Below, one piece after another: positions 4,271-35,096 of a DNA stretch of 36,010 nucleotides. Numbering within the stretch: position 1 is the stretch's first letter; every line of letters starts with the position of its first letter. The translations under genes were made by a program, and so were the position numbers. This stretch comes from Pseudomonadota bacterium (lineage in GTDB: Bacteria > Pseudomonadota > Gammaproteobacteria > Burkholderiales > Burkholderiaceae_C). The DNA is taken from the NCBI GenBank assembly GCA_030535425.1, contig JAUNHQ010000028.1, positions 1 through 36,010 on the forward strand. Direction: 5' to 3'. The notes under the pieces were generated by a model that saw only the letters and a list, made by a program, of their open reading frames with translations, did not search any database and was not told the origin of the DNA.

Positions 4271-6235
4271 TTACTGGGGGTCACTTTGCTGAAACAGCGC
4301 CGAGTCCGTGCGCAGCTTGTGCACGTCGCCCACGCGGCGGGTCAGGCCTACGCGGTCGAAATATTCGAGGATCTGGATGGCACGCTTGCGGCCCAGGCCG
4401 GTGGCGTCACGAAACTGCGCGGCCAGCACCTGGCCGCCGTGTTCGGCGGCCACGCTGCGGGCGCGGTGGGCCAGCTCGTGCATGGTGGGCAGGGGGTAGT
4501 ACAGGTCTTTGACCACGGCGTGCAGTTCGCCCCGGCGGGCCAGGCGGGCCAAGGTGGCGCGCACCAGGGGTTCGGGCTCTTGCGCGTCGCGCGCCAAATC
4601 GCGCGCCCAGGCGCCTTCAAACCCGGCTTGCAGCAGGGCGGGGGCAACTTTCTGGGCGATGCGGTTTTCGGTGGCCGACAGTTGCGCGCCGTGCGTGGGC
4701 AGGTGGGCCACGGCGCCGTGCAGCACCACGCGCTGGTCTTGGGCCAGGCGCGCGAGCAGGGCTTGCCACAGGGGGGCGGGCAGGCGCGGGGCGGCCAGGC
4801 GGCGCAGGCGGGCGGTGTCGGGGCCCAGTTCGTCGGGCTGGCGGTCGTGAAAGGCTTGCAGGGCCGCGATGGTGGCCTGGGCCAGGGTATCGGCGGCGGC
4901 AGCGCCCAGCGCGTGCTGGGCTGGTTGGCCGGGGTCGGCTGTGTCCAGCAAGGTGCCTGCGGGCAGGGCTTGGGCGGGCAGGGTGAGCAGGCCGAGCGCG
5001 GTGCGCAGGCGTTGCAGGTCGACGCCGTGGGGGGCGTGCTGGATGAGGGCGGCCACGCGGGCGGCGGTGTGGGGCAGGGCCAGGGCGGCCAGTTCGGCCA
5101 GGCGCTGGGGGGTGCGGCGGTAGCGGGTGGGGGCCAGCGGGTCGAGCACCACGCCGCCTGCCAGGGTGCGGCTGGCTGAGGCGTCGCGCAGCACCACGCG
5201 CTCGCCGTGCCAGGCGCCGATGGGGGTGTGCAGCACCAGTTGCACCAGGGCGCTGCCGCCGGGGGGCAGGGTGTCGGCATCGAGCACGGCAACGGTGGCG
5301 TTGACGTGGGCGGCGCCGATGTGGGCTTGCACGCGGGTGCCGCTGCGCAGGGGCTTGGCTTCGCCATGCCACAGGGTCAGGCGCGCGTCCAGCCGCTGGG
5401 TGGACAGGGCCACGGCGGGGCTGCACAGCCATTGGCCGCGCGCGACTTCGTCCTTGGCCACGCCGGCCAGGGCCACGGCGCAGCGCTGGCCTGCATGGGC
5501 GGTTTGAACGGGCTGGTTTTGCGCGTGCAGGCTGCGCACGCGCGCGCGCCGGGTGCCGGGCACCAGGGCCAGCTCGTCGCCTGCGCGCACGCTGCCGGTG
5601 TGGATGGTGCCGGTGACGACGGTGCCGGCACCGGTCAGGGTGAAGGCGCGGTCGATGGCCAGGCGAAAGGCGGTGTGGCCTTCGGGCGGGGCTGGATTTT
5701 GGGCATCATTTTGGCCGCTAGCGCTTGTCTGGAGGGTGGCAGCAGCTTCAAAAAGAAGAGCGCGCAGGGTGTCGATGCCTTGGCCCGTGTGGGCGGATAC
5801 GGCCACGATGGGCGCGCTGGCCAGCGGCGTGGGGGCGAGCAGGGCGGCCACGCTGTCGCGCACGGCTTGCACGCGGGCGGCATCGGCGCGGTCGGTTTTG
5901 GTGATGACGGCCACGCCGCGCGCCACGCCCAGCAGGCTCAGCACGGCCAGATGCTCCAGCGTTTGCGGCATGGGGCCGTCGTCGGCGGCCACCAGCAGCA
6001 GGGCAAAGTCGATGCCGCTGGCGCCAGCGACCATGGTGTGCACCAGGCGTTCGTGGCCGGGCACGTCGATAAAGCCGATGCGCTGGCCGGCAGGCGTGTC
6101 GAGAAAGGCGTAGCCCAGCTCGATGCTGATGCCGCGCTGTTTTTCTTCGGGCAGGCGGTCGGTGTCTACCCCGGTGAGGGCGCGCACCAAGGTGGTTTTG
6201 CCGTGGTCGATGTGGCCTGCGGTGCCGATGATCAT
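4271..6235 (-). CDS. selB: Selenocysteine-specific elongation factor SelB
   Basis: A 654-residue translation GTPase that carries Sec-tRNA-Sec to UGA codons followed by a SECIS hairpin. The G1 loop GHIDHGKT is at residues 7-14, switch II is DVPGHE near 57-62, and TKTD occupies the G4 position (SelB proteins often have TKxD rather than NKxD). The beta-barrel domain begins with [20 protein letters not shown], and the C-terminal third (about 400-654) fits the winged-helix array that binds SECIS RNA. Residues about 160-180, between the G domain and domain II, are encoded by a type B dispersed repeat. Length is close to E. coli SelB (614) plus this insert. It is followed by selC; selA is not adjacent, unlike in many selAB loci. 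Confidence 0.96.
5695..5755 (+). repeat. Dispersed type B repeat inside selB, in frame
   Basis: The 35 nt beginning GGCCGCTAGCGC at 5713 match the copy in hemE (from 21061) at 29 of 35 positions by hand alignment without gaps. The flanks are A/T-rich (ATTTTGGGCATCATTTT on one side, TTCAAAAAGAAG on the other). Read on the selB strand it encodes [14 protein letters not shown], almost the same peptide as in HemE, in the same frame. It sits in the linker between the G domain and domain II, where sequence is expected to be tolerant. Confidence 0.75.
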
Positions 6236-6309
6236 GAGAGGCTGGGGGCAAGAAAAGCGTAGCGGACGAGGTGCCAGCGAAAAAACAAGGCCGGGCGCGG
6301 CGGCAAGGG

Positions 6310-8141
6310 CTATTCGGTGCGCCCTTGCAGAAGCAGATCGACCACATTGTGGGGCAGCTCGCTCAAGGCGGCGCGCTCGCGGTTGATGTGGTCGATGACC
6401 TGGCTGGCATCGGTGCCGGGCGGCGGCGGACCGGCCCAGCCGGTGCGGTCGCCGTTGAGCTGCACTTCATGCAGGGCGGCGCTGGTGGGGGTGAGCACGG
6501 CAATGTGGTCGCGCCGCGCGCCCTGCACTTGCAGCACATAGGGCGCTGGCGCGTGTGCTGGCCCCAGCAGACGGCCGCGGAAGGCGTCGGTGCATGAAGG
6601 CAGGCCGGCCATGGCCTGCAGGCCGGCCAGAAAGTCGGTTTGCTGCCAGTGCCCTGGCACGGGGCCGGGGGGCAGACCGGCCGGGCCAATGACGACGGCG
6701 GGCACGCGGGCGGCGGCCGCTGGCCCCAGGCGCTGTGTTTCGCCAGGCTGCACAAAGGTCATGGCGCGGTGATCGCCCGTGATGACCAGCACCCCGTGCT
6801 GGAAGTAACCGCGCTCCTTGAGCGCCTGGACAAATTGGCCAAGCTGCGCGTCAGCCCAGGCAAAGGCCTGGGCTTCGTTTTGGATGGCAGTGCCTGGCAC
6901 ATGAAAGGGCGGATGGGTGGAAACGGTCAGGAGCACCGAGAACACGGGGCGTGTGCGCTGGCGCTCATGGTCGTACCACTGCAGGTAGCGGGTGTAGAGC
7001 GTGTTGTCGCCTGTGTCGCCAAAGGCGCCGCGCGGCAGGCTGGCGTAGGCAGGGTGCTCATGCCCTTCCACATGGGCAAAGCCCAGTTTCTGGAGCCAGC
7101 GGCCTTTGTGCAAGAAGCCCAGGTCGCCGGTGGTGAAAAAACCGCTTTGGTAGCCCGCCGTGTGCAGCTGGGCCATGAGCTGCGGCTCGGCCGCCTGCTC
7201 ATAGCCCGCATAAACGTGTGTGCTGTGGTAGCGGCCGATGGCAGGCAGGGGCGCGCGGGCAGTGAGCAAGGCAATGAGGCCGCCGTCGGTGGTGAAGCCG
7301 TTGGCGTAGAAGTGGGGAAAGTAGCTGTGGGCCTGGGCCAGCTTGTCCAGCTCTGGCGTGCTGCTGCCCAGGCCGCTGAGCAAGGCGCTGTGGTAGGCCG
7401 ATAAGGATTCAACGACCAGCAGGATGACTGAGCGCGGCGCTTGCCCGGCGGGTGCAGGCGCGCACGTGGCGGCGGGTGCGGGCGCGGCGCGCAGGCGGGC
7501 GTGCATGGCGGCGGAATAGGGCTTGTCCACGCTGCCGGGCAGGTTGTTGGTGAGCAGGTCGCGGTAGTACTCTGGCGCGATGTAGCTGGCCGCTGGCAGC
7601 GCCAGCGTGGCCCAGGGCAGCGCCGCAGCCAGTGCGGCCATGGCGGCAGCGGTGCGTGTGCCGGTGTGGATGCGGGCCATGGCACCGGCAAAGCCCACGC
7701 ATGCCAGCAGCCAGCCCGCCAGCAGCCACAGGCCTTGCGGCTTGCCCAGCAGGGCAGTGCCACGCTCCAGGCCGCGCCGGTGTCGCCCGAATAGCGCAGC
7801 AGGTCGGCCAGCTTCAGCCGCATGCCGAAGATCAGCAAGGTGCCCAGGTCGATGGCGTGCAGGCTCAGCAGCGCCAGCGCCGCGATGATCAGAGGCAGGC
7901 GCAGCCACCATGCGCGTGCGAGGCAGGCCAGTGCCGTCAGGCCCAGCAAGACGGCGAGCAGGCGCAGATCGTGCAGGGCAATGGGCAGGTTAAAGCAGCC
8001 CTGGCAGCCCATGTAGGCGCCCGCACCTGCGTCCATGGTGTGCATGCGCATGCCGGTGAGCATGGCCAAGCCGGCCAGACCGGCGCACAGCCAAGGCAAC
8101 CAGTGCCGCTGGGTCATGCGAGGGCTGGGGGTGGCGGTCAT
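6310..8141 (-). pseudogene. LTA synthase-like membrane sulfatase with apparent frameshift near 7740-7790
   Basis: Two overlapping frames on the minus strand make up one recognisable protein. The upstream frame (ATG at 8141) gives a membrane-helix-rich N-terminus reaching LKLADLLRYSGDTGAAWS. The protein-like sequence then continues in the other frame from LLGKPQGLWLLAGWLLACV through an alkaline-phosphatase/sulfatase domain: VVESLSAYHS, FTTDGGLIALLT with a likely nucleophile Thr, STHPPFHVPG and ITGDHRAM, ending at 6310. This is the LtaS/OpgB-type phosphoglycerol-transferase superfamily, with a membrane-bound N-terminus and a periplasmic catalytic domain. The switch needs one extra base or a -1 shift. 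I see no slippery heptamer, so a mutation or an assembly error is more likely than programmed shifting. The substrate is unknown. It lies 74 bp upstream of selB. Confidence 0.7.
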
Positions 8142-8324
8142 GGCAAAGGAGGGTGTTGACTGGCGTGCGGTGCCGCAGATGCCTGCACATGAAACCCCGC
8201 CTGTCGCGCCAGGGCCGCGTGGCCCATGTGTGCGATACCGTGCCTGGTAGCGCTGCGCGTTGCGCCTGGCCCTGCCACCAAATGCATCGGTTTGATTGGG
8301 TGCAGCTTTTCGCAGGGCGGCGCA

Positions 8325-9584
<1,260 letters not shown>

Positions 9585-10871
9585 TCAGACGCCGCCGCCC
9601 AGGCGGGTGTCGCCTGCACCGCCCATGCGGGAGTCGCCAAAGTCCGTCGAATGGAACCCGCTGTTGCCATAGCCGGTGCGGGCAAAGCCGGCCTTGCCGA
9701 AGCCGCTGGGGCGCACGTCCAGGGTGATTTCGGTGAACGAGGGTTCGTCGCTGGGGCGCTCTTCTTCGGCCTGGGGCTGGTTGGGGTTGAAGCGTCCGTC
9801 GTTTTGCAGGCGCCACATGAGGTTGGTGGGCGAGTCGGCGTTGGCCAGGCCTTCGTTGCGGTCGATACGGCCCTCGGTGATCAGGCGGGCGAGATCTTGC
9901 TCAAAAGTCTGCGAGCCTTCGGCCATGGCGTTGTCCATGGCTTCTTTCACGCCGGAGAAGTCGCCTTTTTCGATCAGCTCCTGGATCAGCTTGGTGTTGA
10001 GCATGACTTCCACCGCAGGTGTGCGGCCGCCATCCACAGTGCGTATCAGGCGCTGCGACACCACGGCCTTGAGAGCCGAGGACAGGTCGTTGAGCAGGGT
10101 GGGGCGCACTTCCACGGGATAGAAGCTGAGCACGCGGTTGAGCGCCTGGTAGCTGTTGTTGGCGTGCAGCGTGGCCAGGCACACGTGGCCCGATTGCGCG
10201 TAGGCGATGGCGGCGGACATGGTTTCGCGGTCGCGGATTTCGCCGATCATGATGACGTCCGGTGCCTGGCGCAGCGCGTTTTTCAGGCCGATTTGCAGTG
10301 TGGCGGTGTCAGAGCCCACTTCGCGTTGGTTCACCACGGATTTCTTGTTGGTGAACATGAATTCCATCGGGTCTTCGATGGTGAGGATGTGGCCGGTCAT
10401 GTTCTGGTTGCGGTGATCCAGCATGGCCGCCAGCGTGGTGGACTTGCCCGCGCCGGTGGCGCCCACCATGAGCACCAGGCCGCGCTTTTCCAGCACCAGC
10501 TTGGACAGCACCGCCGGCAGGTTGAGCGTGTCCAGCGACGGAATGTCCGGGCTGATGAAGCGGATCACCGCCGCGTAGGTGCCGCGCTGGCGCATGGCCG
10601 AGAGGCGGAAGTTGCCCACGCCGTGGATGGGGATGGCCATGTTCAGCTCGCCCGTTTCGCGCAGCTCTTCGATGCGGTTGGGCGGCACCACGTCCATCAG
10701 CAGGTTCAGCGGGCCTTCGGCGGGCAGCACCTGGTTGTTGATGGGAAAGTATTGGCCATCAATCTTGATCGTGGCCGGGGCATGGGCCGACAGGTACACG
10801 TCCGAGGCCTTTTTGGCGGCCATCAGGTGCAGGATGCGCTCCATCATGGTTTGCGGCGGGGCGACGGCCAT
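9585..10871 (-). CDS. pilU: PilT/PilU-family type IV pilus retraction ATPase
   Basis: A 428-residue secretion ATPase of the kind that powers pilus retraction at the inner membrane. It shows Walker A GATGAGKST, the Asp-box region EDPMEFMFTNKKSVVNQREVG, Walker B IMIGEIRDRETM and the His-box HVCLATLHANN. The wording of these segments and LSFYPVEVRPTLLNDLSSAL is closer to PilU than to PilT, but I cannot exclude a separate PilT/U paralogue. The start at 10871 (MAVAPPQTMMERIL) is preferred over one 21 codons upstream, which overlaps the dapD terminator. The last 40 residues form a Gly/Phe-rich tail (GFGKAGFARTGYGNSGF) not found in the core enzyme. It sits between dapD and dapE, separated from dapD by an intrinsic terminator. 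Confidence 0.87.
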   Translation of the reverse strand: MAVAPPQTMMERILHLMAAKKASDVYLSAHAPATIKIDGQYFPINNQVLPAEGPLNLLMDVVPPNRIEELRETGELNMAIPIHGVGNFRLSAMRQRGTYAAVIRFISPDIPSLDTLNLPAVLSKLVLEKRGLVLMVGATGAGKSTTLAAMLDHRNQNMTGHILTIEDPMEFMFTNKKSVVNQREVGSDTATLQIGLKNALRQAPDVIMIGEIRDRETMSAAIAYAQSGHVCLATLHANNSYQALNRVLSFYPVEVRPTLLNDLSSALKAVVSQRLIRTVDGGRTPAVEVMLNTKLIQELIEKGDFSGVKEAMDNAMAEGSQTFEQDLARLITEGRIDRNEGLANADSPTNLMWRLQNDGRFNPNQPQAEEERPSDEPSFTEITLDVRPSGFGKAGFARTGYGNSGFHSTDFGDSRMGGAGDTRLGGGV

Positions 10872-10900
10872 GGCACTTTTCCTTTGCAGGTGCAGGGGGA

Positions 10901-10952: not shown

Positions 10953-10968
10953 AGGCGGTGGTGGTAGG

Positions 10969-11802: not shown

Positions 11803-11810
11803 GTTGTCTT

Positions 11811-13016
11811 TCAAGAGCGGGATTGGATGAACTGCACGATGCGCTGGGCGGCTTGCACGCATTCGCTGGTTTCGGCCACCAGGGCCATGCGCACGCGGCC
11901 CTGGCCGGGGTTGTGGCCCTGCACCTCGCGCGCTAAATAGCTGCCGGGCAAAACCGTGACATTGTATTGAGCGAGCAGTTCGCGGGCGAAATCTGTGTCG
12001 GAACTTTTCCACGCATCGGGCACACCAGCCCACAGGTAAAAGCCGGCGTCGGGCAGGCGCACGTCCATCACCTTTTCCAGCAGCGGGGTGACGGCGGCGA
12101 ACTTTTCGCGGTACTGGCGGCGGTTGTCCTGCACGTGGGCTTCGTCGTTCCAGGCGGCGATGCTGGCGGCCTGCACCACGGGGCTCATGGCGCTGCCGTG
12201 GTAGGTGCGGTAGAGCAAAAAGGACTTGAGCAGCGCCGCATCACCGGCCACAAAGCCCGATCGCATGCCCGGCACGTTGCTGCGCTTGGACAGGCTGGTG
12301 AGCATGACGAGGTTCTTGAAGTCCGCGCGGCCCAGCTGGGCCGCCGCTTGCAGCCCGCCCAGGGGCGGCTCGTCACGAAAGTAAATCTCGCTGTAGCACT
12401 CGTCCGAGGCGATGACAAAGCCGTGCCGATCGCTCAGATCGAACAGCATCTGCCATTCATCCAACGGCATGACCGCGCCCGTGGGGTTGCCGGGCGAGCA
12501 CACGTACACCAGCTGCGTGCGCGCCCACACCTCGGGCGGCACCTGGTCCCAGCGCGGGGCAAAGTTGCGCGCCGGGTCGCTGGCCACGTAGTGCGGCGTG
12601 GCCCCGGCCAGCAGGGCGGCGCCTTCGTAGATTTGGTAGAAGGGGTTGGGGCAGACCACGGTGGCGCCGGCGCGGGTGGGGTCGATCACCGTTTGCGCCA
12701 GGGCAAACAGCGCCTCGCGCGAGCCGAGCACGGGCAGCACCTGGGTGGCCGCATCCACCGTTATGCCGTAGCGGCGCTTGAGCCAGCTGGCGCAGGCCTG
12801 GCGCAGTGCGGGCGATCCGGCCGTGGGCGGGTAGCCCGCCAGGCCCGTGGCCAGATCGGCGGCCAGCGCCTGCTGAATGAAGGCGGGTGTGGCGTGCTTG
12901 GGCTCGCCAATGCCTAAGCTGATGGGGGGGTAGGCGGGGTGGGGCTCAACCCCTTCGAACAGCTTGCGCAGGCGCTCGAAAGGGTAGGGTTGCAGGCGGG
13001 AGAGCAGGGGGTTCAT
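11811..13016 (-). CDS. dapC: Succinyldiaminopimelate aminotransferase
   Basis: A 401-residue fold-type I PLP aminotransferase. It converts N-succinyl-2-amino-6-oxopimelate to N-succinyl-LL-diaminopimelate, the step between DapD and DapE. The PLP lysine is in [15 protein letters not shown] (about Lys244); SPGNPTGAV and [11 protein letters not shown] supply the conserved Asn and Asp/Tyr contacts, and the C-terminal Arg lies in GRVRMALV. Aminotransferases of this group are hard to tell apart from sequence alone; position 8 bp upstream of dapD strongly favours DapC. The ATG at 13016 is the first in frame and starts the typical [17 protein letters not shown] segment. A type A repeat occupies the 97-bp space upstream. 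Confidence 0.94.
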
Positions 13017-13061
13017 GGGCGGCGATGAGTGAGGGGCTGCGGGGGGTAGAAAGGGTGGGTG

Positions 13062-13119
13062 AAAAAGGCTTTTTGCGCTTTATTGACGAGGGTTTTTAGC
13101 TATGTTTTTAATATCATTC
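13062..13119 (+). repeat. Dispersed type A repeat between mnmH and dapC
   Basis: It reads AAAAAGGCTTTTTGCGC, then TTTATTGACGAGGG and TTTTTAGCTATGTTTTTAAT. The core is a GGCTTTTTGCGC variant, as in the 33690 copy. I cannot find a good pairing left arm here, so this copy may be decayed. Its tail overlaps the last codons and TGA stop of mnmH (13114-13116). It occupies most of the space where a dapC promoter would be expected. Confidence 0.65.
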
Positions 13120-14184
13120 ATCCGTTAAAGGCTCGGCCAGCAGCTGCGCGGCGGCCTGGGCCAGCGCCTGGGGGCTGGCGCTGGGCAGGTGCAGCACGGG
13201 CGCGGCCGCAAAGCGGCTGAAGTGGCGGCGCGTGGACTGGGCATAGCCGGGGTCGTAGTGCGTGGCCAGCAGCGCGCGCACCACTTCTTCGGTGCGGCCG
13301 GCGCGCACCTGGGCTTGCCAGGCCTGCACCACGGCGCGGCCGCGCAGGGCCACCAGGGTGTCCAGCCGGTGGCAGAAGAACTCAGGGTCTTGCACGAAAA
13401 AGGGGTAGTCCTGCATCAGCAGGGCCACGCGCTGGGCATCGGGCAGCTGCACGTGCAGGCAGTCGCTGGCGCGCATGGCGTGCATCAGTGCGTCGGGCAG
13501 GGTGCAGTTGCCCACTTTCTTGCTTTCGGCTTCCACGTACACGGGGCGGGCGGCGTCAAAGCCGCGCAGGGCCTGCCACACGCGCATTTCAAACTGCTTT
13601 TGCGAGGGCTGGGGCTGACCGGGAATCAGCCCCAGCACCGAGGCGCGGTGGCTGGCCAGCGCCTCCAGATCCAGCACTTGCGCGCCTTGCGCGGCCAGCG
13701 CCTGCAACAGCCGTGTCTTGCCCGAGCCGGTGGGGCCGCACAGCACGCGGTAGCGCAGGCGCTGGGCGTGCTGTGGCAGATCGGCCAGCATGGCGGTGCG
13801 AAAGGCTTTGTAGCCGCCTTCGATGCGGTGCACGTGAAAGCCGATTTGCCCCAGCACCAGCGCCAGCGCGCCGCTGCGCTGGCCGCCGCGCCAGCAGTAG
13901 ATGAGCGGACGCCAGCTTTTGGGCAGGTGCAGCGCGTGCTGCTCCAGGTGCGCGGCGATGTTGCGCGCCACCAGCATGGCGCCAAGCTTGCGCCCCTCAA
14001 ACGGCCCGAGCTGCTTGTACACGGTGCCCACGCGGGCGCGTTCGGCATCGTCCAGGCTGGGCCAGTTCAGCGCGCCGGGCAGGCAATCGTGCGCGTATTC
14101 GGCGGGGCTGCGTGCGTCGATGACGGCGCTGAATTCGTGCAGGCGGTGCAGCGCATCGGCAGCGCTCAAGGAGGCAACGCTCAT
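13114..14184 (-). CDS. mnmH: tRNA 2-selenouridine synthase
   Basis: A 356-residue enzyme (also called SelU/YbbB) that replaces sulfur by selenium, via a geranylated intermediate, at the wobble 2-thiouridine of Lys, Glu and Gln tRNAs, using selenophosphate. The N-terminal rhodanese domain has the catalytic Cys97 in YCWRGGQRSGA. A P-loop domain follows (GPTGSGKT at 150-157), then VYVEAESKKVGNC, characteristic of the family. The start at 14184 (MSVASLSAADAL) gives a normal length; the upstream extension runs through tesA in another frame. It begins 16 bp after the tesA stop. The stop codon lies in the edge of a dispersed repeat. Together with selB and selC it indicates that this organism uses selenium in both protein and tRNA. 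Confidence 0.94.
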   Translation of the reverse strand: MSVASLSAADALHRLHEFSAVIDARSPAEYAHDCLPGALNWPSLDDAERARVGTVYKQLGPFEGRKLGAMLVARNIAAHLEQHALHLPKSWRPLIYCWRGGQRSGALALVLGQIGFHVHRIEGGYKAFRTAMLADLPQHAQRLRYRVLCGPTGSGKTRLLQALAAQGAQVLDLEALASHRASVLGLIPGQPQPSQKQFEMRVWQALRGFDAARPVYVEAESKKVGNCTLPDALMHAMRASDCLHVQLPDAQRVALLMQDYPFFVQDPEFFCHRLDTLVALRGRAVVQAWQAQVRAGRTEEVVRALLATHYDPGYAQSTRRHFSRFAAAPVLHLPSASPQALAQAAAQLLAEPLTDE

Positions 14185-14200
14185 GGCGCGGGCGGGGGCG

Positions 14201-14908
14201 TTACTTGAGCAGCTTGCGCAGCTCGGGCCACATGTTGTCCAGGATGACGGGGTGGGCGGCGGCGGTGGGGTGGATGCGGTCGGACTGAAACAGCTCCAGC
14301 GCGTTGGGCCGGTCGGCCACGCCCTTGAGGAAAAAGGGCACGAGCGCGGCTTTTTCGGCCTGCGCCACCTTGGGGTAGAGCGCGGCAAAGCGCTGGCCGT
14401 AGCTGGCGCCGTAGTTGGGCGGCATTTGCATGCCCGCCAGCAGCACCTGGGCGCCGGCTTGCTGCGCGGCGCGGGTCATGGCGCTGAGGTTGGCCTCGGT
14501 CATCTCCAGCGGCAGGCCGCGCAGGGCGTCGTTGCTGCCCAGCTCGATCACCACCACGGCGGGCCGGTGGCGCGCCAGCAGCGCGGGCAGGCGAGAGCGC
14601 CCGCCCGAGGTGGTGTCGCCCGAGATGCTGGCGTTGACCACCTGGGCGGCGATCTTTTCGGCGGCCAGTTTTTTCTCCAGCAGCGCCACCCAGCCGCTGC
14701 CGCGGGCAATGCCGTATTCGGCGCTGAGCGAGTCGCCCAGCACCAGGATCAGCGGTGCGCCGGCGGCAGAGGCTGCGGTGGCCGGGGTGCTGGCGGGGGC
14801 AGCGGGCGCAGCCGCTGCGGCGGTGCCCGCCAGCGCCGCCAAGGCAGCGGCGGCGGCCAAGCGGATACAGTCACGTCGGTTCAAGAGATCAAGGCCTTTC
14901 AAATCCAT
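14201..14908 (-). CDS. tesA: TesA-like GDSL esterase/lysophospholipase, exported
   Basis: A 235-residue SGNH/GDSL hydrolase of the acyl-CoA thioesterase I/arylesterase type. A hydrophobic leader with an RR pair (NRRDCIRLAAAAALAALAG) indicates export to the periplasm. The catalytic Ser60 is in LGDSLSAEYG, block III is GSNDALRG, and the Asp/His dyad is in DRIHPTAAAHP. The ATG at 14908 overlaps the start codon of the divergent ABC ATPase gene. An alternative TTG at 14884 would start directly at MNRRDCIRL and remove the overlap, and I cannot decide between them. In many proteobacteria tesA is divergent from a ybbA-type ABC gene, as here. mnmH follows 16 bp downstream. Confidence 0.87.
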   Translation of the reverse strand: MDLKGLDLLNRRDCIRLAAAAALAALAGTAAAAAPAAPASTPATAASAAGAPLILVLGDSLSAEYGIARGSGWVALLEKKLAAEKIAAQVVNASISGDTTSGGRSRLPALLARHRPAVVVIELGSNDALRGLPLEMTEANLSAMTRAAQQAGAQVLLAGMQMPPNYGASYGQRFAALYPKVAQAEKAALVPFFLKGVADRPNALELFQSDRIHPTAAAHPVILDNMWPELRKLLK

Positions 14909-15623
14909 GACGGAAACAACAGCAGGCGCCGGCGCGGCGCCCATCATCGAGGTGGAGCATGTGCACAAGTCGGTCACCGACTCCAGCGGCACGCTGGATA
15001 TTCTGCGCGATGTCCACTTCAACCTGGCCGCGCGCGAGACGGCGGCCATCGTGGGTGCCTCGGGTTCGGGCAAGAGCACGCTGCTGTCCATCATTGCCGG
15101 GCTGGACGTGCCCACGCGCGGCACGGTGCGCCTGGGCGGGCAGGATTTGTTTGCTGTGGACGAGGACGCACGGGCGCAGCTGCGCGCACGCCAGCTGGGC
15201 TTTGTGTTTCAGAGCTTTCAGCTCATGGGCAGCCTGACGGCGCTGGAAAACGTGATGCTGCCGCTGGAGCTGGCGGGCCGCTCAGACGCGCGCGCCGCCG
15301 CTGCCGACATGCTGGCGCGCGTGGGCCTGGGCGAGCGGTTGAGGCATTACCCCAAGCTGCTGTCGGGCGGCGAGCAGCAGCGCGTGGCGCTGGCGCGCGC
15401 CTTTGTGGTGCGCCCGGCGGTGCTGCTGGCCGACGAGCCCACGGGCAGCCTGGACTTTGCCACCGGGCAAAAGGTGATGGAGCTGATGTTTGACCTGAAC
15501 CGCGAGCTGGGTACCACGCTGGTGCTGGTCACACACGACCGCGCCATTGCCGCGCTGTGCCAGCGCCGCCTGACGGTGGAGGCCGGGCGCATCGTGGCCG
15601 ATGAGCGCGCGCCCGCAGGCTGA
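14907..15623 (+). CDS. LolD/YbbA-like ABC transporter ATP-binding protein
   Basis: A 238-residue cytoplasmic ATPase. Walker A is GASGSGKST (50-58), the Q-loop is FVFQSFQLMGSLTALENV, the signature is LSGGEQQRVALARA, Walker B is VLLADEPTGSLD, and the H-loop is LVTHD. It belongs to the MacB/LolD/FtsE group that partners with FtsX-type permeases; divergent linkage to tesA suggests the YbbA subgroup. No permease gene follows: the next gene is a PPK2 kinase 69 bp away, so the partner must be elsewhere or lost. The start at 14907 shares two bases with the tesA ATG. AAGG at 14891-14894 could serve as a ribosome-binding site, though 12 nt is a long spacing. Confidence 0.92.
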   Translation: MTETTAGAGAAPIIEVEHVHKSVTDSSGTLDILRDVHFNLAARETAAIVGASGSGKSTLLSIIAGLDVPTRGTVRLGGQDLFAVDEDARAQLRARQLGFVFQSFQLMGSLTALENVMLPLELAGRSDARAAAADMLARVGLGERLRHYPKLLSGGEQQRVALARAFVVRPAVLLADEPTGSLDFATGQKVMELMFDLNRELGTTLVLVTHDRAIAALCQRRLTVEAGRIVADERAPAG

Positions 15624-15654
15624 AGGCGCAGGCGCGCGTGGGCGGGCCTTTTTT
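15611..15654 (+). terminator. Possible terminator after the ABC ATPase gene
   Basis: GCCCGC (15611-15616) can pair with GCGGGC (15642-15647), followed by C and six T residues (15649-15654). The 25-nt loop is long and the left arm lies within the last codons of the gene, so this is only a candidate. Confidence 0.4.
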
Positions 15655-15692
15655 GAAAAACACACTGGCGCAAAGCCTGGGAGAGCACACGC

Positions 15693-16529
15693 ATGGCAAG
15701 CAAAACACCCCGTCAGCCCGATTTTTCCGCCTGGCGGGTGCCCCACGGCGGCAAGGGCTTTGCGCTGGAGCGGCTGGACCCGGGGGCCAAGCCCTGCTCG
15801 CTGGGCAGCAAGGCCGAAGACAAGGCCCGGGTGGAAGCCTTGTCGCGCGAAATCGACGAGCTGCAAGACCTGTTCTGGGCCTGCCGGCGCCTGAAGCTGC
15901 TGGTGCTGCTGCAAGGCACCGACACTTCTGGCAAGGACGGCACCATCCGCGCCGTGTTCAAGGAAACCAGCCCGCTGGGCGTGCGCGCCGTGAGCTGGAA
16001 AGCACCCACGGCCACGGAGCGCGCGCACGACTTTCTGTGGCGCATCCACCAGCAGGTGCCGCAGGCCGGCGAGTTCATGATCCACAACCGCAGCCATTAC
16101 GAGGACGTGCTGGTGCCCGTGGTGCAGGGCCATCTGGACGCCAAGGCCACGGCGCAGCGCCTGCGCCAGATCAACGACTTTGAGCGCATGCTCAGTGAAA
16201 CGGGCACCGTCATCCTCAAGTTCATGCTGCACATCAGCTTCGAGGAGCAGCGCAAGCGCCTGCAAGAGCGGGTGGACAACCCGCACAAGCACTGGAAGTT
16301 CAGCATGGACGATATCGATGCGCGTGCGCAGTGGCCCCAGTACCAGCAGGCCTATGACCGCATGCTGGCCGCCACCTCTACCCGCTGGGCGCCCTGGGTT
16401 GTGGTGCCTGCCGACAGCAAGACGCACCGCAACCTGATGGTGGCCACCGTGGTGCGCGACAAGCTGCGCTCGCTCAAGCTGCGCTACCCGCCCGATGACG
16501 CCCGGCTGGCCGGGCTGGTCATCACCTGA
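15693..16529 (+). CDS. ppk2: Polyphosphate kinase 2 family protein
   Basis: A 278-residue PPK2-family P-loop kinase, which transfers phosphate between polyphosphate and nucleotides. Walker A is QGTDTSGKDGTI (about 74-85); the lid and Walker B regions are seen in NRSHYEDVLVPVV and INDFERML, and LKFMLHISFEEQRKRLQER and HWKFSMDDIDAR are conserved in the family. It is a single-domain enzyme. Nucleotide preference (AMP, ADP or GDP) cannot be read from the sequence with confidence. The ATG at 15693 follows a GGGAGAG stretch that can act as ribosome-binding site. The gene converges on the ferredoxin reductase gene, with a type A repeat acting as the likely shared terminator. Confidence 0.92.
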   Translation: MASKTPRQPDFSAWRVPHGGKGFALERLDPGAKPCSLGSKAEDKARVEALSREIDELQDLFWACRRLKLLVLLQGTDTSGKDGTIRAVFKETSPLGVRAVSWKAPTATERAHDFLWRIHQQVPQAGEFMIHNRSHYEDVLVPVVQGHLDAKATAQRLRQINDFERMLSETGTVILKFMLHISFEEQRKRLQERVDNPHKHWKFSMDDIDARAQWPQYQQAYDRMLAATSTRWAPWVVVPADSKTHRNLMVATVVRDKLRSLKLRYPPDDARLAGLVIT

Positions 16530-16538
16530 TGGGCAGTG

Positions 16539-16617
16539 CCCTTATGGGGTATGCATGAAAAATGCCATTTGCGCGCATTCCATAAGGGTTTTAAGCTATT
16601 AATATAATAGCTAATCG
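16539..16617 (+). repeat. Dispersed type A repeat with two hairpins, between ppk2 and fnr
   Basis: Arms CCCTTATGG (16539-16547) and CCATAAGGG (16580-16588) pair perfectly around a GCCATTTGCGCGC core (16564-16576). TTTTA follows, then a second perfect inverted repeat AGCTATT-AATAT-AATAGCT (16594-16612). It lies between two convergent genes, and the first hairpin followed by T residues can terminate ppk2 transcription. The TAG stop of the ferredoxin reductase (16611-16613) falls inside the AGCTA tail, so the element supplies the stop codon. Confidence 0.75.
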
Positions 16618-17705
16618 CAAGTGGGCTGCCCAGGCGGCGGATGCAGCAGGGCATGCAGCCGCGTGCTGCTGGTGGTGTACTGAAACGGCAAGGGATGGTC
16701 TGGCGCGATGAGTGCCTGCGCGGCATAGGCGGCCAGCGTGGCTTCGTGAAAGCCGCACAGGATGAGCTTTTTCTTGCCGGGGTAGGTGTTGATGTCACCC
16801 ACGGCGAAGATGCCCGGCTCGCTGGTCTGAAACTTTTCCGTGTCCACCACCAGCTGCTTGCGCTGCATGGCCAGGTGCCAGTCGGCCAGGGGGCCGAGCC
16901 GGGGGCTGAAGCCCTGGCAGACGAGCAGCACGTCGGCGGGCAGGGGCGTGGTCTGGCCGTCCGGGCCCATCACATGCAGTGCGCGCATGGGGCCGCCGGG
17001 CGTGTCCATGCCCTGCGCCTGGCCGACCACCACCCTCAGCGCACCCGACGCGCGCAAGCCGGCCAATGCCTGGGCCGTGTCTGCGTCGGTCTGGAAGGCA
17101 TCGCGCCGGTGCAGCAGCGTGACGCTGGCCGGGGGGGCGCTGGCGCCAGGGGGCATGGCGGTGCTGGCCCAATGCACGGCCTGGGCCACGGCGCTGGCTT
17201 CGCCCCCCGCGATGACCAAGTGCCGCCCCTGCACCTGCGCGGGTGAGGGCGGGGTGTAGAAGACCTGGCGGCCTTCCAGCGCCTGCACGCCCTCGATTTT
17301 CAGGCGCCGGGGCTCGAAAGCGCCCACGCCGGCGGCAATGAACACGGCCTTGGCCCGCAGACGCAGGCCCTGGGCGGAGCCGAGCAGGAAGCGCCCGTCG
17401 GCCTGGCGCTGCAGGCTGTCCACCACATGGCCCAGGTGAAAGACGGGCTGGAACGGCTCGATTTGCTGCATCAGCCCGTCCACCAGGGACTGGCCGCTGC
17501 ACTGGGGGATGGCGGGAATGTCGTAAATGGGCTTGTCCGCGTACAGCACGGAGGGCTGGCCGCCCACGTGCGGCAGGGCGTCGATGACGTGGGTGCGGCA
17601 TTCCAGCAGGCCCAGCTCAAACACGGCAAACAGGCCGACCGGCCCGGCGCCGATGATGGCGACGTCGGTGTCCAGCGGCTCGGCAGTGTCTGGCGCAGCA
17701 CTCAT
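16611..17705 (-). CDS. Ferredoxin--NADP reductase, thioredoxin reductase-like type
   Basis: A 364-residue flavoprotein that moves electrons between NADPH and ferredoxin. The N-terminal FAD Rossmann motif is IIGAGPVGLFAVFELG; the second nucleotide site is VIAGGEASAVAQAVHWA. The C-terminal FAD segment GDINTYPGKKKLILCGFHEA is characteristic of the TrxR-like ferredoxin reductases. The CxxC of true thioredoxin reductases is absent, supporting the reductase-of-ferredoxin call. It lies 48 bp downstream of the 7Fe ferredoxin gene on the same strand, a natural redox pair. The stop codon TAG is contributed by the edge of a dispersed repeat. Confidence 0.9.
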   Translation of the reverse strand: MSAAPDTAEPLDTDVAIIGAGPVGLFAVFELGLLECRTHVIDALPHVGGQPSVLYADKPIYDIPAIPQCSGQSLVDGLMQQIEPFQPVFHLGHVVDSLQRQADGRFLLGSAQGLRLRAKAVFIAAGVGAFEPRRLKIEGVQALEGRQVFYTPPSPAQVQGRHLVIAGGEASAVAQAVHWASTAMPPGASAPPASVTLLHRRDAFQTDADTAQALAGLRASGALRVVVGQAQGMDTPGGPMRALHVMGPDGQTTPLPADVLLVCQGFSPRLGPLADWHLAMQRKQLVVDTEKFQTSEPGIFAVGDINTYPGKKKLILCGFHEATLAAYAAQALIAPDHPLPFQYTTSSTRLHALLHPPPGQPTCD

Positions 17706-17753
17706 GGCGGGCAGGGCCGGGCGCGGCAGTTCGGCACAGCCCCAGGGGGGTTT

Positions 17754-18083
17754 TTAGCGAATCAGCTCGCTAAGTTTGCCGGTCTTGTCTTTCCACTGCT
17801 CGTGGTCGGGCAGCGGCTCTTTGCGCTTGGTGATGGTTTTCCAGCCGGGCAGGCGGGCCAGCTCGGCGTTGAGCGCGGTCATGTGCAGCTGGTCCTTGGG
17901 CAGGTCTTCTTCAGCGTAGATGGCGTTGACGGGGCATTCGGGAATGCAGACGGCGCAGTCAATGCACTCCTCGGGGTCGATGGTCAGGAAGTTGGGGCCT
18001 TCCTTGAAGCAATCGACGGGGCACACGTCCACGCAATCGGTGTATTTGCAGCGGATGCAGGCTTCGGTGACAACGTGGGTCAT
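17754..18083 (-). CDS. fdxA: Seven-iron ferredoxin FdxA
   Basis: A 109-residue ferredoxin with cysteines at 9, 12, 17, 21, 25, 40, 43, 46 and 50. [17 protein letters not shown] and [12 protein letters not shown] fit the 3Fe-4S plus 4Fe-4S arrangement of the Azotobacter FdI/FdxA family. The C-terminal tail ([20 protein letters not shown]) is also typical of proteobacterial FdxA. The start [17 protein letters not shown] is the usual family start. Its neighbour downstream is a ferredoxin-NADP reductase, probably its partner. priA lies upstream with 183 bp between (18084-18266), where I find no gene and no convincing promoter. Confidence 0.95.
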
Positions 18084-18266
18084 GGTCTGGTGTGTCGTGG
18101 GAGCGGGCCATGCGGGTGCCAGAACGCGTGGTGCCGCCGCTCGGGGTCAAGGGAAAACCCGCAAGTTTAGCCGTGCGGCAGGCCAGGCGATGCAGCCTGT
18201 GCCCGAAAGCCCCTGCGGCGTGGCGGGTGTGATGGATGTGGCGAATGCGTGGCGGCAGCAGGCCCG

Positions 18267-20417
18267 CTACACCGCCAGCGGGTCCACGTCCACCGCCCAG
18301 CGCACGATGGCGCGGTGCGTGGGGTGGGTGCGCCGCTGGTGCAGCAGCGGCTGGCAGGCGCTGAGCACGCGCTGCAAGGCGGCGCGCGAGGGGCTTTCCA
18401 GCAGCATCTGGGCGCGCTCGATACCCGCCACGCGCTGCACGGCCAGGGGCACGGCGGGATACCAGGTGACGTGGGCCAAGGCGGCGGCGCAGGCCGCGTC
18501 TTGGGCCAGGCTGTGCTGGGCGGTTTGGGCCACGTCGGCCAGAAAGTCCTGCGCGGCCTGCTGGCTGCGGGCTTCGGCGCGCAGCAGGGCCAGGTGGACG
18601 AAGGGGGGCAGGCCGGCCTGGGCGCGCTCTTGCAGCTGGCTGGCGGCAAAGCCGGGGTAGTCGTGGGTTTTCAGGGCGGCAAACAGCGGGTGCTGGGGGT
18701 GATGGGTTTGCACCCACATTTCGGCCTGCGCGCCCTGGGCCGCGTCGCGTCCGGCGCGGCCAGCGGCCTGCATGAGCAGGGCAAACAGCCGTTCGGGGGC
18801 GCGAAAGTCGCTGGAAAACAGCGCGCCGTCGGGGTTGACGGCGGCCACCAGGCTGACGCGGCGAAAGTCGTGGCCCTTGGCGATCATTTGCGTGCCCACC
18901 AGCACGTCAACGGCGCCAGCGTGGACCTGGGCCAGCTGCGCTTCGAGCTGGCCCTGGCCGCGGGTGGAGTCGGCGTCGATGCGGGCCACGCGCACGGGCT
19001 GGCCGTCGGGACGCTGCAAGGGGGCCAGCAGCTCGGCCAGTTTTTCTTCCAGCTGCTCGGTGCCGCGGCCTAAAGGGGTGATGTCCAGGTTGCCGCAGGC
19101 GGGGCAGGCGCGGGGCACGGGCTGGGCCAGGCCGCAGTGGTGGCAGCGCAGGGTGCGGTCGATCTTGTGAAAGACGCGAAAGGCGCTGCAATGCGGGCAT
19201 TCGCTTTTCCAGCCGCAGTCGGCGCAGTGCAGCACGGGGGCGTAGCCCCGGCGGTTGAGCAGCAGCAGGGTTTGTTCGCCGCGCGCGGCGCGCTCGCCAA
19301 TGGCTTGCAGCAGGGGCGGGGCGATGAGGGTGCCGCGCGGCTGGCGGGCCATGTCCACCCGGCGCACCAGGGGCAGGCCGTGGTTTGCCGCGTCGGCGCC
19401 GATGCGCCGGGGCATGTGCAGGCGCAGGTAGCGGCCCGGCCCGTCGGGCGCGGGGGTGCTGGCGTGCCAGCTTTCCAGCGAGGGGGTGGCCGAGCCCAGG
19501 ATGACCTTGGCGCCGCCCAGGTGGCCCCGGTACACGGCCAAGTCGCGCGCGGAATAGCGCGCGCCTTCTTGCTGCTTGTAGCTGGCATCGTGCTCTTCAT
19601 CGACCACGATGAGGGCCAGCCGCGGCAGCGAGGCGAGCACGGCCACGCGCGTGCCCAGCACGATGCGCGCCTGTCCCTGGTGGGCGGCCAGCCAGGCGGC
19701 CAGGCGCTGCGCGGGGGTCAGGCCGCTGTGCAGGGCCACCACGGCACCGGCGCCCAGGCGGGGGGCAAAGCGGCTGGAAAAGCGCGCCAGCAGCTGGGGG
19801 GTGAGGTTGATCTCGGGCACCAGCACCAGCACCTGCGCGTGCGCATCGCGCGCCAGGGCGGCTTCGGCGGCGCGCATGTACACCTCGGTCTTGCCGCTGC
19901 CGGTGGCGCCAAAGAGCAAGAAGGGGCCGGGGTGTTGCTCCATTTGGGCTATCGCGCTTGCCTGGTCTGGGCTGAGTGCTACTAAAGGTGAAGCATCTTG
20001 CGCTGCATGGCCCGCATGATCCGTATGGCCTGTATGGCCCATGGACGCGGCGCGCTTGAGGCGGCGGGCCATTTGCTCGCTGCTCAACGTCCGCAGCTGT
20101 GGCGGCAGCGCGGCCAGGGCCACTTCGCCCAGGGCGCGCTGGTAGTAGCGGGCGGTAAAGGCGATGAGCGCGCGCCAGTGCGCATCCAGCGGGGGCAGGC
20201 CATCCAGCGCGCCGGCCACGTCGCGCGCCTGGGCGGCCAGGGCCGCATCGGGCGCGGGGGCGGGGCCTTGCCACACCACGCCCAGCACTTCGCGCCGGCC
20301 CAGGGGCACGCGCACCAGGGTGCCGGGCGGCCAGGGCTGGCTGGCGCGGTAGGTCAGCGGCTCGGCCAGCCCGCTGTGCGCGGGGGTGGGCACGGCCACG
20401 GCAAGCCAGTGCGTCAT
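18267..20417 (-). CDS. priA: Primosomal replication protein N' / replication restart helicase
   Basis: A 716-residue 3'-5' helicase that recognises stalled forks and loads DnaB. The N-terminal DNA-binding domain is followed by Walker A FGATGSGKTEVY, Walker B/DEEH (VVDEEHDASYKQQEG), and the eight-cysteine zinc region (CADCGWKSECPHC ... LRCHHCG ... CPACGN) inserted between helicase lobes, then GTQMIAKGHDF and QAAGRAGR. Length is near E. coli PriA (732). The start at 20417 (MTHWLAVAVPTPAHS) fits the family. Residues about 126-138 are a run of (G/D)H(T/A) tripeptides from a 9-bp tandem repeat, and residues about 145-158 may derive from a dispersed repeat. Its 5' leader (20418 onward) is unusually rich in hairpins and has a DnaA-box sequence. 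Confidence 0.95.
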   Translation of the reverse strand: MTHWLAVAVPTPAHSGLAEPLTYRASQPWPPGTLVRVPLGRREVLGVVWQGPAPAPDAALAAQARDVAGALDGLPPLDAHWRALIAFTARYYQRALGEVALAALPPQLRTLSSEQMARRLKRAASMGHTGHTDHAGHAAQDASPLVALSPDQASAIAQMEQHPGPFLLFGATGSGKTEVYMRAAEAALARDAHAQVLVLVPEINLTPQLLARFSSRFAPRLGAGAVVALHSGLTPAQRLAAWLAAHQGQARIVLGTRVAVLASLPRLALIVVDEEHDASYKQQEGARYSARDLAVYRGHLGGAKVILGSATPSLESWHASTPAPDGPGRYLRLHMPRRIGADAANHGLPLVRRVDMARQPRGTLIAPPLLQAIGERAARGEQTLLLLNRRGYAPVLHCADCGWKSECPHCSAFRVFHKIDRTLRCHHCGLAQPVPRACPACGNLDITPLGRGTEQLEEKLAELLAPLQRPDGQPVRVARIDADSTRGQGQLEAQLAQVHAGAVDVLVGTQMIAKGHDFRRVSLVAAVNPDGALFSSDFRAPERLFALLMQAAGRAGRDAAQGAQAEMWVQTHHPQHPLFAALKTHDYPGFAASQLQERAQAGLPPFVHLALLRAEARSQQAAQDFLADVAQTAQHSLAQDAACAAALAHVTWYPAVPLAVQRVAGIERAQMLLESPSRAALQRVLSACQPLLHQRRTHPTHRAIVRWAVDVDPLAV
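19943..19985 (+). repeat. Possible type B repeat fragment inside priA
   Basis: TTTGGGCTATCGCGCTTGCC followed by TGGTCTGGGCTGAGTGCTACTAAA resembles type B in overall order: a T-run, GGC, GCGC, CTGG and an AGTGCTA tail. It matches the selB and hemE copies only loosely. The encoded ALSPDQASAIAQM is also plausible native PriA sequence, so this may be chance or an assimilated remnant. Confidence 0.35.
20004..20041 (-). repeat. 9-bp tandem repeat in priA encoding His-rich tripeptides
   Basis: Four degenerate 9-bp units (such as TGCATGGCC, CGCATGATC, CGTATGGCC and TGTATGGCC on the plus strand) encode GHT-GHT-DHA-GHA in PriA. They sit in the linker between the N-terminal domain and the helicase core. 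Copy number could vary between strains because the unit length keeps the frame. Confidence 0.7.
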
Positions 20418-20794
20418 GTGCGGGCCGGGCGCCGGGGTGCTATGGAAATCGACATGCAGTTTCGGCCTTAAGTGCTTGATGTACAAGCGATTGGGCAGTC
20501 ATGCCCAATTTCTGTGGATAACTTTGTTGAGAACCTGCGGTCACGGGCCGCAAAGCCTTGTCTGACAAGGCTTCCGTTAGGCTGCCCACGAAAAGAGCAA
20601 GAATTAAATCCTATATAAATCAATCACTTACGTGGGTGCTGCGTGCGCTGGGCGGCGGCGCATGGCGCGTGGCCGGGGCAGCGGGTTTTGTGCACAAGTC
20701 AAGCCCCCGGCGGCAAAAAAATTATGTAGCCAAAGGTTCACAAGGGCTTGACGAGGGGCGCTGGCGGCGTTCTGGCGCAGCGGCGGCATGGCGG
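20418..20794. other. Hairpin-rich priA leader region with DnaA-box sequence and AT-rich tract
   Basis: These 377 bp without a gene lie between the hemE stop and the priA start, both minus strand. Visible signals are inverted repeats GCTTG/CAAGC (20474-20488), ATTGGGCA/TGCCCAAT (20490-20509), TGCGG/CCGCA (20536-20552) and AAGCCTTG/CAAGGCTT (20553-20573). A perfect DnaA box, TTATCCACA on the minus strand, is at 20514-20522. CCCACG/CGTGGG (20585-20590, 20631-20636) bracket a roughly 40-bp AT-rich tract. TTGTGCACAA, one mismatch from a DnaA box in both directions, is near 20689-20698. The priA promoter should lie here, but I cannot place it. No chromosomal-origin genes (dnaA, dnaN, gyrB, rpmH) are nearby. 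Confidence 0.6.
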
Positions 20795-21997
20795 CTATGG
20801 GCGTGCGCGCAACTGGCGCGAATAGGTGTGCACCTCGTCCACCAGATGCGCCACGTGCTCGGGCGGGGTGTGCTGGCTGATGCCGTGGCCCAGGTTGAAG
20901 ATGTGCGTGCTGCCGGGTGTGGCGGAGTCGGTGTGGGGCGGGCCAAAGCTGTCCAGCACGGCGCGCACCTGGGCGCGAATGGCCTCGGGCGGGGCAAAGA
21001 GCACGTTGGGGTCGATGTTGCCTTGCAGGGCTTTTGGGCGGGTGAATGCAGGGTCTTTTTGGCCGCCAGCGCCCGTCTGGAGCGTGCGAGCAGCTATGTT
21101 TTCAGGAGTATTCTGGCCGTGGGCCTGAGCGCCGGCGGCTTGCTGCACGATGCGGCGCGCCGCGCCCAGGTTCATCGTCCAGTCCAGGCCCAGCACGTCG
21201 CAATGCAGGTGCGCCATCTCGGGCAGCCACAGGCCGCCGCCTTTGGTGAAGACGATGCGCGGCACGGTGGCGCCGTCTGTGCCCGTGCGCTTGAGCTGGG
21301 CCAGCACGCGCGCGGTGTAGGCCAGGCTGAAGGTCTGGAAAGCGCCATCGGCCAGCACGCCGCCCCAGCTGTCAAACAGCATCACGGCTTGCGCGCCGGC
21401 GTCGATCTGGGTGTTGAGGTATTGCGCCACCGCGTCGGCGTTGACTTGCAGCACGCGGTGCATCAAATCGGGCCGGGCGTACATCAGGGTTTTGACGTGG
21501 CGGTAGTCGCTGCTGCCGCCACCTTCAACCATGTAGCAGGCCAGCGTCCAGGGGCTGCCGGAAAAGCCAATCAGCGGCACGCGCCCGGCCAGGGCGCGGC
21601 GGATGCTGGTGACGGCGTCGAACACGTAGCGCAGCTGGTTCATGTCGGGCACGCGCAGGGCGGCCACGGCGGCTTCGTCGCGCACCACTTTTTCAAACTT
21701 GGGGCCTTCGCCTTGTGCAAAGGACAGGCCCAGGCCCATGGCGTCGGGCACGGTGAGGATGTCGCTGAACAAGATGGCCGCATCCAGCGGGTAGCGCGCC
21801 AGCGGTTGCAGGGTGACTTCGGTGGCGTAGTCCACCTGCGTGGCCAGGCCCATGAAGCTGCCGGCCTGGGCGCGGGTGGCGCGGTATTCGGGCAAGTAGC
21901 GCCCGGCCTGGCGCATCAGCCACACGGGCGTGTGGTCGGTGGCCTGGCCCAGGCAGGCGCGCAGAAAGGTGTCGTTTTGCAAAGGGGCGAAAGTCAT
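20795..21997 (-). CDS. hemE: Uroporphyrinogen decarboxylase
   Basis: A 400-residue cytosolic enzyme that removes four carboxyl groups from uroporphyrinogen III to give coproporphyrinogen III in haem synthesis. Signature 1 ([15 protein letters not shown]) is near residues 26-40 and signature 2 ([17 protein letters not shown]) is intact; [17 protein letters not shown] near the C-terminus is conserved. The start at 21997 ([12 protein letters not shown]) fits the family; the open frame extends upstream without homologous sequence. The protein is about 45 residues longer than E. coli HemE (354). A large part of the excess is at residues about 291-317, encoded by a type B dispersed repeat just before the KALQGN segment. 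Expected activity is retained because all recognised motifs are present. Confidence 0.95.
21055..21115 (+). repeat. Dispersed type B repeat inside hemE, in frame
   Basis: The core runs from GGCCGCCAGCGC (21061) to AGCAGCT (ending 21095), then ATGTTTTCAGGAGTATT. It matches the selB copy at 29 of 35 core positions. On the hemE strand it encodes [15 protein letters not shown], close to the SelB peptide and in the same frame. It lies in a loop before the conserved KALQGNIDP segment. Confidence 0.78.
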
Positions 21998-35010: not shown

Positions 35011-35020
35011 GGCAGATGGT

Positions 35021-35079: not shown

Positions 35080-35096
35080 GACCTGCGAGAGGTCTG

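Follow-up and report, generated by a model that had tools for sequence, protein, structure and literature searches.

A composite palindromic DNA element translated within HemE and SelB of a probable Ottowia genome and its relatives

The window, which is the whole stretch of DNA that was analysed (36,010 nucleotides, positions 1 to 36,010 of the forward strand of contig JAUNHQ010000028.1, assembly GCA_030535425.1), contains the hemE and selB genes, which share a short stretch of nearly identical coding sequence. The selB gene is adjoined by a selenocysteine tRNA gene (4098-4189, minus strand). Both stretches lie on the minus strand and are read in the same reading frame in the two genes. Their 35-nucleotide cores (5709-5743 and 21057-21091) were identical at 29 of 35 positions, and the next best 35-mers within the window reached 22/35 and 23/35. 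This pair of matching in-frame stretches had been pointed out in a sequence-only reading of the window and was present as described. The analysed genome (G000) comprises 3.31 Mb in 144 contigs and is 88.6% complete. Because a 900-base hemE stretch was identical, at identical coordinates, in Ottowia sp. oral taxon 894 (L072) and the congener G005, G000 and its congeners probably belong to Ottowia, in the family Comamonadaceae. Several gene names used here are readings of open reading frame (ORF) translations, not profile matches.

The shared stretch belongs to a dispersed palindromic element. Alignment of 38 copies gave the consensus nGCTnnnAAATTnATAGCTGCTnGCGCTTGnnnnACAAGCGCTGGAGGCCAAAAA, followed by a weaker AA-rich tail. 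The element is approximately 41-64 bp long and consists of two palindromes 5 bases apart, GCTAT-N7-ATAGC and GCGCTTG-N5-CAAGCGC. By eye, the palindromes of the consensus are internal, and terminal inverted repeats of the kind that define miniature inverted-repeat transposable elements (MITEs) were not evident. The spacing is rigid. A spacer of 7 was the commonest in CTAT..ATAG pairs (37/52, 48/84, 21/31 and 18/22 in four genomes). The ATAGC..GCGC distance was most often 5 in three genomes; in G000 a distance of 18 was commoner than 5 (29 versus 23 of 158). For the shorter words GCGCT..AGCGC and AAGCGC..GGCC, a single clear peak was obtained only for GCGCT..AGCGC in G014 (119/475). A covariance model (R1; 64 columns, 0.875 bits each) was built on 34 of the 38 collected copies, with four dropped. 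The two copies of the window were in this training set, so their model scores are partly high by construction. RNA structure was rejected as the basis of the element, because compensatory pair changes among the aligned copies did not exceed those in shuffles and an Rfam search of seven sources at gathering level returned only tRNA-Sec and no family for the element.

The copy number was evaluated in G000 and its relatives. A pattern of the 18-base core was found in 12 of 100 relatives, all from the same family, and in none of the reversed controls. G000 itself had no exact match to the 18-base form and five matches within one mismatch of a close form, and the covariance model gave at least 147 matches at E ≤ 0.1 among 150 scored candidates. 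Contiguous stretches were sampled and scored against a matrix of 37 columns with a threshold of 16 bits (a few of the copies so counted were also in the training set). The counts were 38 copies in 396 kb of G000, 186 in 800 kb of the congener G014, 81 in 400 kb of G011 and 68 in 400 kb of G139, which belongs to another genus; the reversed controls yielded 0, 0, 1 and 0 copies, respectively. Straight extrapolation would mean about 300 copies in G000 and about 1000 in G014. The core is therefore repeated genome-wide beyond chance, with at least 147 model matches in G000, and with 38 matrix copies in 396 kb against none in the reversed sequence. Within the genus, 26 of 29 genomes had at least one match (none in G004, G009 and G026, one in G024 and two in G012), and the congeners spanned 0 to at least 150 matches. 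The family and order searches were run with stricter filters and at most the best 35 candidates per genome. Matches at E ≤ 1e-5 were obtained in 47 of 150 family genomes. The order sample of 150 genomes gave three, two of which were family members (G000, G195), the sole match outside the family being a single weak one in a 78%-complete genome. Copies were found between genes and within core genes. The strands were about equally used in four stretches (49:46, 46:45, 37:44 and 41:28), which leaves no strand bias of the kind considered for a single-stranded DNA annealing mechanism.

The reading frames of the sampled copies were called with a dicodon coding model on 150-nucleotide flanks on each side. 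Nine of 373 copies (at least 16 bits) were too near the end of a stretch to be classified. One continuous coding frame enclosed 61 of the 364 classified copies, compared to 55-60% of random positions (818-894 of 1500 per genome), so the copies are depleted in genes approximately threefold. Eleven of the 61 coding copies contained a stop and were excluded from the frame test. The 50 open coding copies from four genomes were distributed over all six frames (strand and phase: (+,0) 18, (-,2) 12, (+,1) 9, (-,0) 5, (+,2) 3 and (-,1) 3). The (+,0) frame used in HemE and SelB led modestly, exceeding the share expected from its freedom from stops (P = 0.014), yet it accounted for only 36% of the open copies, and the data do not support one preferred frame. 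The (+,1) frame was stop-free in only 4% of 281 non-coding or edge copies. All nine (+,1) coding copies carried GAG for TAG at position -23, compared to 18 of the 281 non-coding or edge copies, which argues that translated copies avoid stops. The sequence-only reading was right in that the repeat is dispersed, present in many copies and in part translated, with stops avoided where it is translated. Of 156 copies at gene edges, 108 lay beside the 5' end of the gene, whereas random edge positions were split 1837 to 1915 (P = 7e-7). Three called copies (16.2, 22.4 and 32.4 bits) were located in a single UvrA-type gene of 1350 residues in G011 (L319:22-4071, plus strand).

Both peptides had been regarded as inserts in linkers or loops that lack a counterpart in the E. 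coli-type proteins, and this stood for HemE, where there is a net gain in length, and needed correction for SelB. The HemE segment from GLDW to GNxDP comprised 61 residues in the window and 27-32 in 77 of 80 named relatives; the loop was likewise short in the aligned solved structure 4exq. Among the other three relatives, L006 had 53 residues with a diverged copy (27.8 bits), and L008 and L072 had 40 residues each and no element match of at least 14 bits despite the longer loop. The loop (window 21050-21120) thus seems to be a permissive spot, being lengthened also in L008, a Hylemonella, and in L072. In the genus, the segment had 50-61 residues in 16 of 24 parsed species and 28-46 in the other eight (26 genomes had a match, 25 were supplied and G021 was not parsed), so HemE versions lacking the long loop occur among congeners and named relatives alike. 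A native origin of both peptides in their protein families, or a likeness by chance, is very improbable given the 77 named relatives without the long loop, reversed controls of 0 to 1 copies and three congeners with no match at all. This explanation is refuted for HemE and applies at most to the weakest copies, such as the match in folC, which may be partly native likeness.

The SelB linker is 15 residues shorter in E. coli. However, linker length hardly differed between congeners with the element, G008 and G024, which lack it, and several further genera, and the copy lies with its left half over native ALLFEA codons and its right half in the linker. Gap-free alignment of the element-coded residues was obtained for LpxB against 5w8s, RsmB against 2yxl, Rep helicase against 1uaa and TsaD against 3zet. 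Methylmalonyl-CoA mutase showed no net change of length (profile 9-717 versus residues 10-718). A CCA-adding-type enzyme had about 8 extra residues against its solved homolog, and a CobC/HisC-like aminotransferase had 6 in a weak alignment, although its G000 ortholog aligned gap-free. The eight solved-structure searches and the mutase were a chosen part of 55 queries. On these alignments, several coding copies (LpxB, RsmB, Rep, TsaD and the ALLFEA part of SelB) overlie native codons with protein length unchanged. Insertion into linkers is hence only part of the account: it describes HemE, but not the copies that align gap-free within conserved domains of solved structures.

The persistence of the element at orthologous sites was assessed at the level of codons. 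When the 37-nucleotide segment of each copy was rewritten synonymously 4000 times, the score was exceptional at p < 0.001 in 44 of 50 copies and at p < 0.05 in all 50; because the copies had been selected by DNA score, the test shows that the likeness lies in the DNA and not what caused it. In HemE, in-frame ATA-GCT was present in 13 of 16 long-loop species. Elsewhere in HemE, conserved isoleucine codons were ATC (75), ATT (3) and ATA (0), conserved alanine was encoded by GCT in 4 of 169 codons, the proportion of the other species with the same A/T third base was 23%, and 13/13 was not reached in any column outside the site. In SelB, a single A/T third base was common to 11 of 12 species at four of six ALLFEA codons, whereas of 419 columns outside only two attained at least 10 of 12 (P = 1.7e-7). 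G045 was not parsed for this set, and G007 and G021, which fall outside it, also have the GCT..GAA codons there. In LpxB (26 loci, with G008 and G013 missed by the search pattern), a level of at least 11 of 15 species was attained by 8 of 23 columns in the site and by 6 of 378 outside (P = 8e-8), the 15 being drawn from 16 copy-bearing species (G008 missing, G003 not supplied); where the site is absent, the codons at that position are mostly different ones. For a histidine phosphatase, all of the 11 parsed loci (of 21) had 31 residues in the segment, while the element score ranged from 28.1 bits in G014 through 8-11 bits in G015, G023, G010, G003 and G000 and 4.0 bits in G007 to below 0 bits in G011, G022, G004 and G012. 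The persistence of A/T third bases across species at three sites suggests that the constraint acts on DNA rather than on a peptide linker. Homogenisation by gene conversion among copies was disfavoured on inspection by eye, since departures from the consensus that are peculiar to one gene were shared between species.

The reading that we favour, at a probability of roughly one half, is that the HemE and SelB peptides are the translation of a family-specific composite palindromic DNA site, kept by selection or by biased recombination; we infer that the core of the element is what is kept as DNA. A putative protein would bind GCTAT-N7-ATAGC, and perhaps the second palindrome too, and binding would either give the site a function in the cell or favour its spread by recombination. 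Copies would enter loops as insertions, as in HemE, or elsewhere replace resident DNA by recombination, and only those compatible with the protein would survive. Selection for harmless insertion, which the sequence-only reading had suggested, is neither needed nor excluded. A bolder version is doubtful: a family-wide two-palindrome signal would have overwritten core-gene codons with length unchanged, through biased recombination or uptake, and its cores would then have been kept as DNA, leaving a trace in the proteomes of many members.

Several observations weigh against a maintained DNA site. The HemE copy itself is a true net insertion in the loop, shared through descent. The 13-species codon set of HemE omitted G001, G007 and G022, all of which lack ATA-GCT, and the element was less conserved than its flanks (mean pairwise identity in 14 species of 0.56, 0.66 and 0.54 at the three codon positions versus 0.88, 0.91 and 0.73), so that only its core stands out as kept. 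Species entered the LpxB group because they carry the element, and the tests of ortholog conservation covered just three genes (HemE, SelB and LpxB). The six outside lpxB columns with conserved A/T-ending codons form a cluster 179-212 codons after LPGSR. The site is missing from HemE of G022 and SelB of G008, both copy-rich genomes, as well as from LpxB of G005 (34 matches) and G021 (61 matches), and the phosphatases of G011 and G022 show no likeness. Even spacing of copies was not seen in G014, where it was near random (coefficient of variation 1.06-1.12). A candidate binding protein was not found in this analysis. Finally, 64 columns is long for a binding or uptake site, and this unusual length suggests copying as a unit.

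Copying as a unit is the substance of the strongest rival, a real though less favoured possibility: a small mobile palindromic element, similar to repetitive extragenic palindromic (REP) sequences, MITEs or Rickettsia palindromic elements (RPEs), whose coding copies are the in-frame survivors. It would account for the full-length copies with variable loops, the copy number of 0 to at least 150 within one genus, the presence of copies in cassette-like arrays, the gene depletion and the long HemE loop in 16 of 24 congeners, in which the element decays between species. In this reading, length neutrality would be only apparent and due to old insertions that the compared species have in common or to compensating deletions. 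It is opposed by the conserved domains in which the element-coded residues match remote homologs of solved structure without a gap, by the element-free SelB of G008, equal in length to most element-bearing SelB proteins, and by the A/T-ending codons conserved across species. Mobilisation by REP-associated tyrosine transposases (RAYTs) was rejected, because Y1_Tnp genes and copies do not co-occur: G015, G016 and G020 have at least 150 matches each yet no Y1_Tnp (86, 99 and 76% complete), and G026, G009 and G004 have Y1_Tnp yet no copies. With G021 added, Y1_Tnp was unmatched in four genomes with 61 to at least 150 element matches, three of them not or barely complete. Of 20 Y1_Tnp loci (1.8-3.4 kb) that were retrieved, seven contained a copy of at least 14 bits, which is about the expectation from density.

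Further copies of varying strength were identified in the window (Table 1). The matrix bits of the window rows derive from a run at a 12-bit threshold, and the counts of the sampled stretches from the 16-bit run.

Table 1. Element copies and single palindromes in the window (model, covariance model; matrix, 37-column matrix).
Feature	Position	Strand	Remarks
Weak copy in folC (557-1933, -)	1520..1583	-	phase 0, reads LIAAFAHVESARGD; 18.9 bits, E = 0.00065 for 36 kb
Copy in selB (gene 4271-6235, -)	5699..5762	-	phase 0; 48.3 bits model, 30.7 bits matrix
Intergenic copy, ORFs 11811-13016 / 13114-14388	13053..13116	-	11.5 bits, E = 0.093; 19.3 bits matrix
First palindrome alone, GCTAT-N7-ATAGC, intergenic	16595..16611		10.7 bits, E = 0.15; last base touches next ORF
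Weak copy in priA (18267-20417, -)	19932..19995	-	phase 0; 13.5 bits matrix; 9.0 bits model, E = 0.5
Copy in hemE (gene 20798-21997, -)	21047..21110	-	phase 0; 60.3 bits model, 33.5 bits matrix
Weak copy near start of methyltransferase-type ORF	28674..28737	+	phase 0; 12.5 bits, E = 0.047; 13.9 bits matrix
Copy in DUF3683/FAD-oxidase/Fe-S gene (ORF 29316-33635, +)	32056..32119	+	phase 1; GAG replaces consensus closing TAG
First palindrome alone, GCTAC-N7-GTAGC, intergenic	33692..33708		10.9 bits, E = 0.14
Intergenic copy, ORFs 34561-35010 / 35141-35995	35017..35080	-	19.6 bits matrix

The copy in the DUF3683-containing gene, whose identity is supported by Pfam, scored 33.7 bits with the model (aligned over 32056-32113) and 20.5 bits with the matrix. 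The folC copy reached 20.6 bits with the matrix, a score attained by none of 4000 synonymous rewrites. According to ortholog alignments, the weak priA copy covers residues that are present in the orthologs too. The copy near the start of the methyltransferase-type ORF was classed as a gene-edge copy. The first palindrome of the copy at 13053..13116 is strong and the second poor, and the copy overlaps the stop codon of ORF 13114-14388, which looks like selU. The copy at 35017..35080 was absent from the covariance-model matches in the window.

The element was also identified in integron cassettes. Matches to a composed query of 96 bases were present in 1830 plasmid records, chiefly from Enterobacterales, with 80-95% identity in 1786 of them and 80-90% in most. 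In the three records examined (L364, LC623924.1; L365, NC_009651.1; L366, AB571791.1), the match was located in a class 1 integron array, where the element lies in a cassette between resistance cassettes. The integron cassettes carry the element at 44-51 bits, and over 310-326 bases they had 86-88% identity with arrays in G019, G016, G038 and G011, the G011 array being on its 3.9-Mb contig. Given this identity, the integron cassette probably derives from Comamonadaceae. One of the three records has a DUF1010 gene annotated at the match, on the opposite strand. Pfam DUF1010 (PF06231, E = 3.8e-33) was assigned to L365:1397-1639 (minus strand) over residues 16-81 of the product, a span which includes FLASSACVASGTSYY, the element read on the other strand. 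Part of DUF1010 may thus be an antisense reading of the element and perhaps no real protein domain. Repeated-unit arrays with strong copies were observed in G011, G038 and G016 (L110, L109 and L092), and they look like cassette arrays.

If the favoured reading is true, a signal at the DNA level shapes protein sequence in place across core genes, and nature would offer an uncommon test of the extent to which proteins tolerate a DNA constraint. The occurrence of copy-rich and copy-free species within one genus offers a handle on the long-open question of how dispersed palindromes spread in bacteria. The element also marks DNA from Comamonadaceae, for example in integron cassettes.

Among the known systems, RPEs are palindromic repeats of which many lie within ORFs and are read in frame as a peptide, as far as their account in PMC10969869 goes. 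Similarly, the element described here is palindromic and read in frame inside unrelated genes (50 open coding copies), and it adds sequence to HemE and the CCA-adding-type enzyme but not to LpxB, RsmB, Rep or TsaD. RPEs are described in the same account as insertions of about 150 bp, whereas the present element is of about 41-64 bp and occurs in all six frames; compared by description only, it further differs in its length neutrality in several genes and in its A/T third-base conservation. The enterobacterial repeats RU-1/2/3, small repeats with open frames inside genes, are likewise comparable by description only, being longer (103-168 bp) and from other hosts in the part of PMC2759123 consulted. 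The beta-proteobacterial repeat element (BRE), known from Bordetella and Comamonadaceae, is likewise dispersed, and some of its copies lie wholly inside coding sequences; it is reported, in the available part of PMC3110155, to be about 90 bp long with partial copies of 40-60, to have 69% GC in Bordetella, to be sometimes tandem and to reach at most 29 copies per genome. Because of this GC content and the low counts, we think that the element is probably different from BRE. BRE aside, the literature, searched by titles and the beginnings of abstracts with few subscription journals, contained no description of the element, and a text search with sequence words returned only papers unrelated by title.

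The element resembles REPs and bacterial interspersed mosaic elements (BIMEs) in being short, palindromic and dispersed. REPs favour gene 3' ends. Unlike REP/BIME systems with RAYTs, the element has no Y1_Tnp association, and its edge copies prefer gene 5' ends. Known DNA uptake signals are short and not palindromic in this form. The element differs from the DNA uptake sequences (DUSs) and uptake signal sequences (USSs) of Neisseriaceae and Pasteurellaceae in being composed of two palindromes over about 41-64 bp and in its near-random spacing. That it is nevertheless such a signal, which the competence machinery would recognise and which biased uptake together with recombination would enrich, seems unlikely, the more so as it is present in mobile cassettes. 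The likeness to DUS/USS consists in many copies, about equal use of both strands, coding as well as non-coding copies that include core genes, and conservation, though patchy, at three orthologous genes. Neisserial DUSs are similarly dispersed and conserved, and are placed in permissive parts of the core genome with an origin in recombination, according to the portion of PMC2397512 that was seen.

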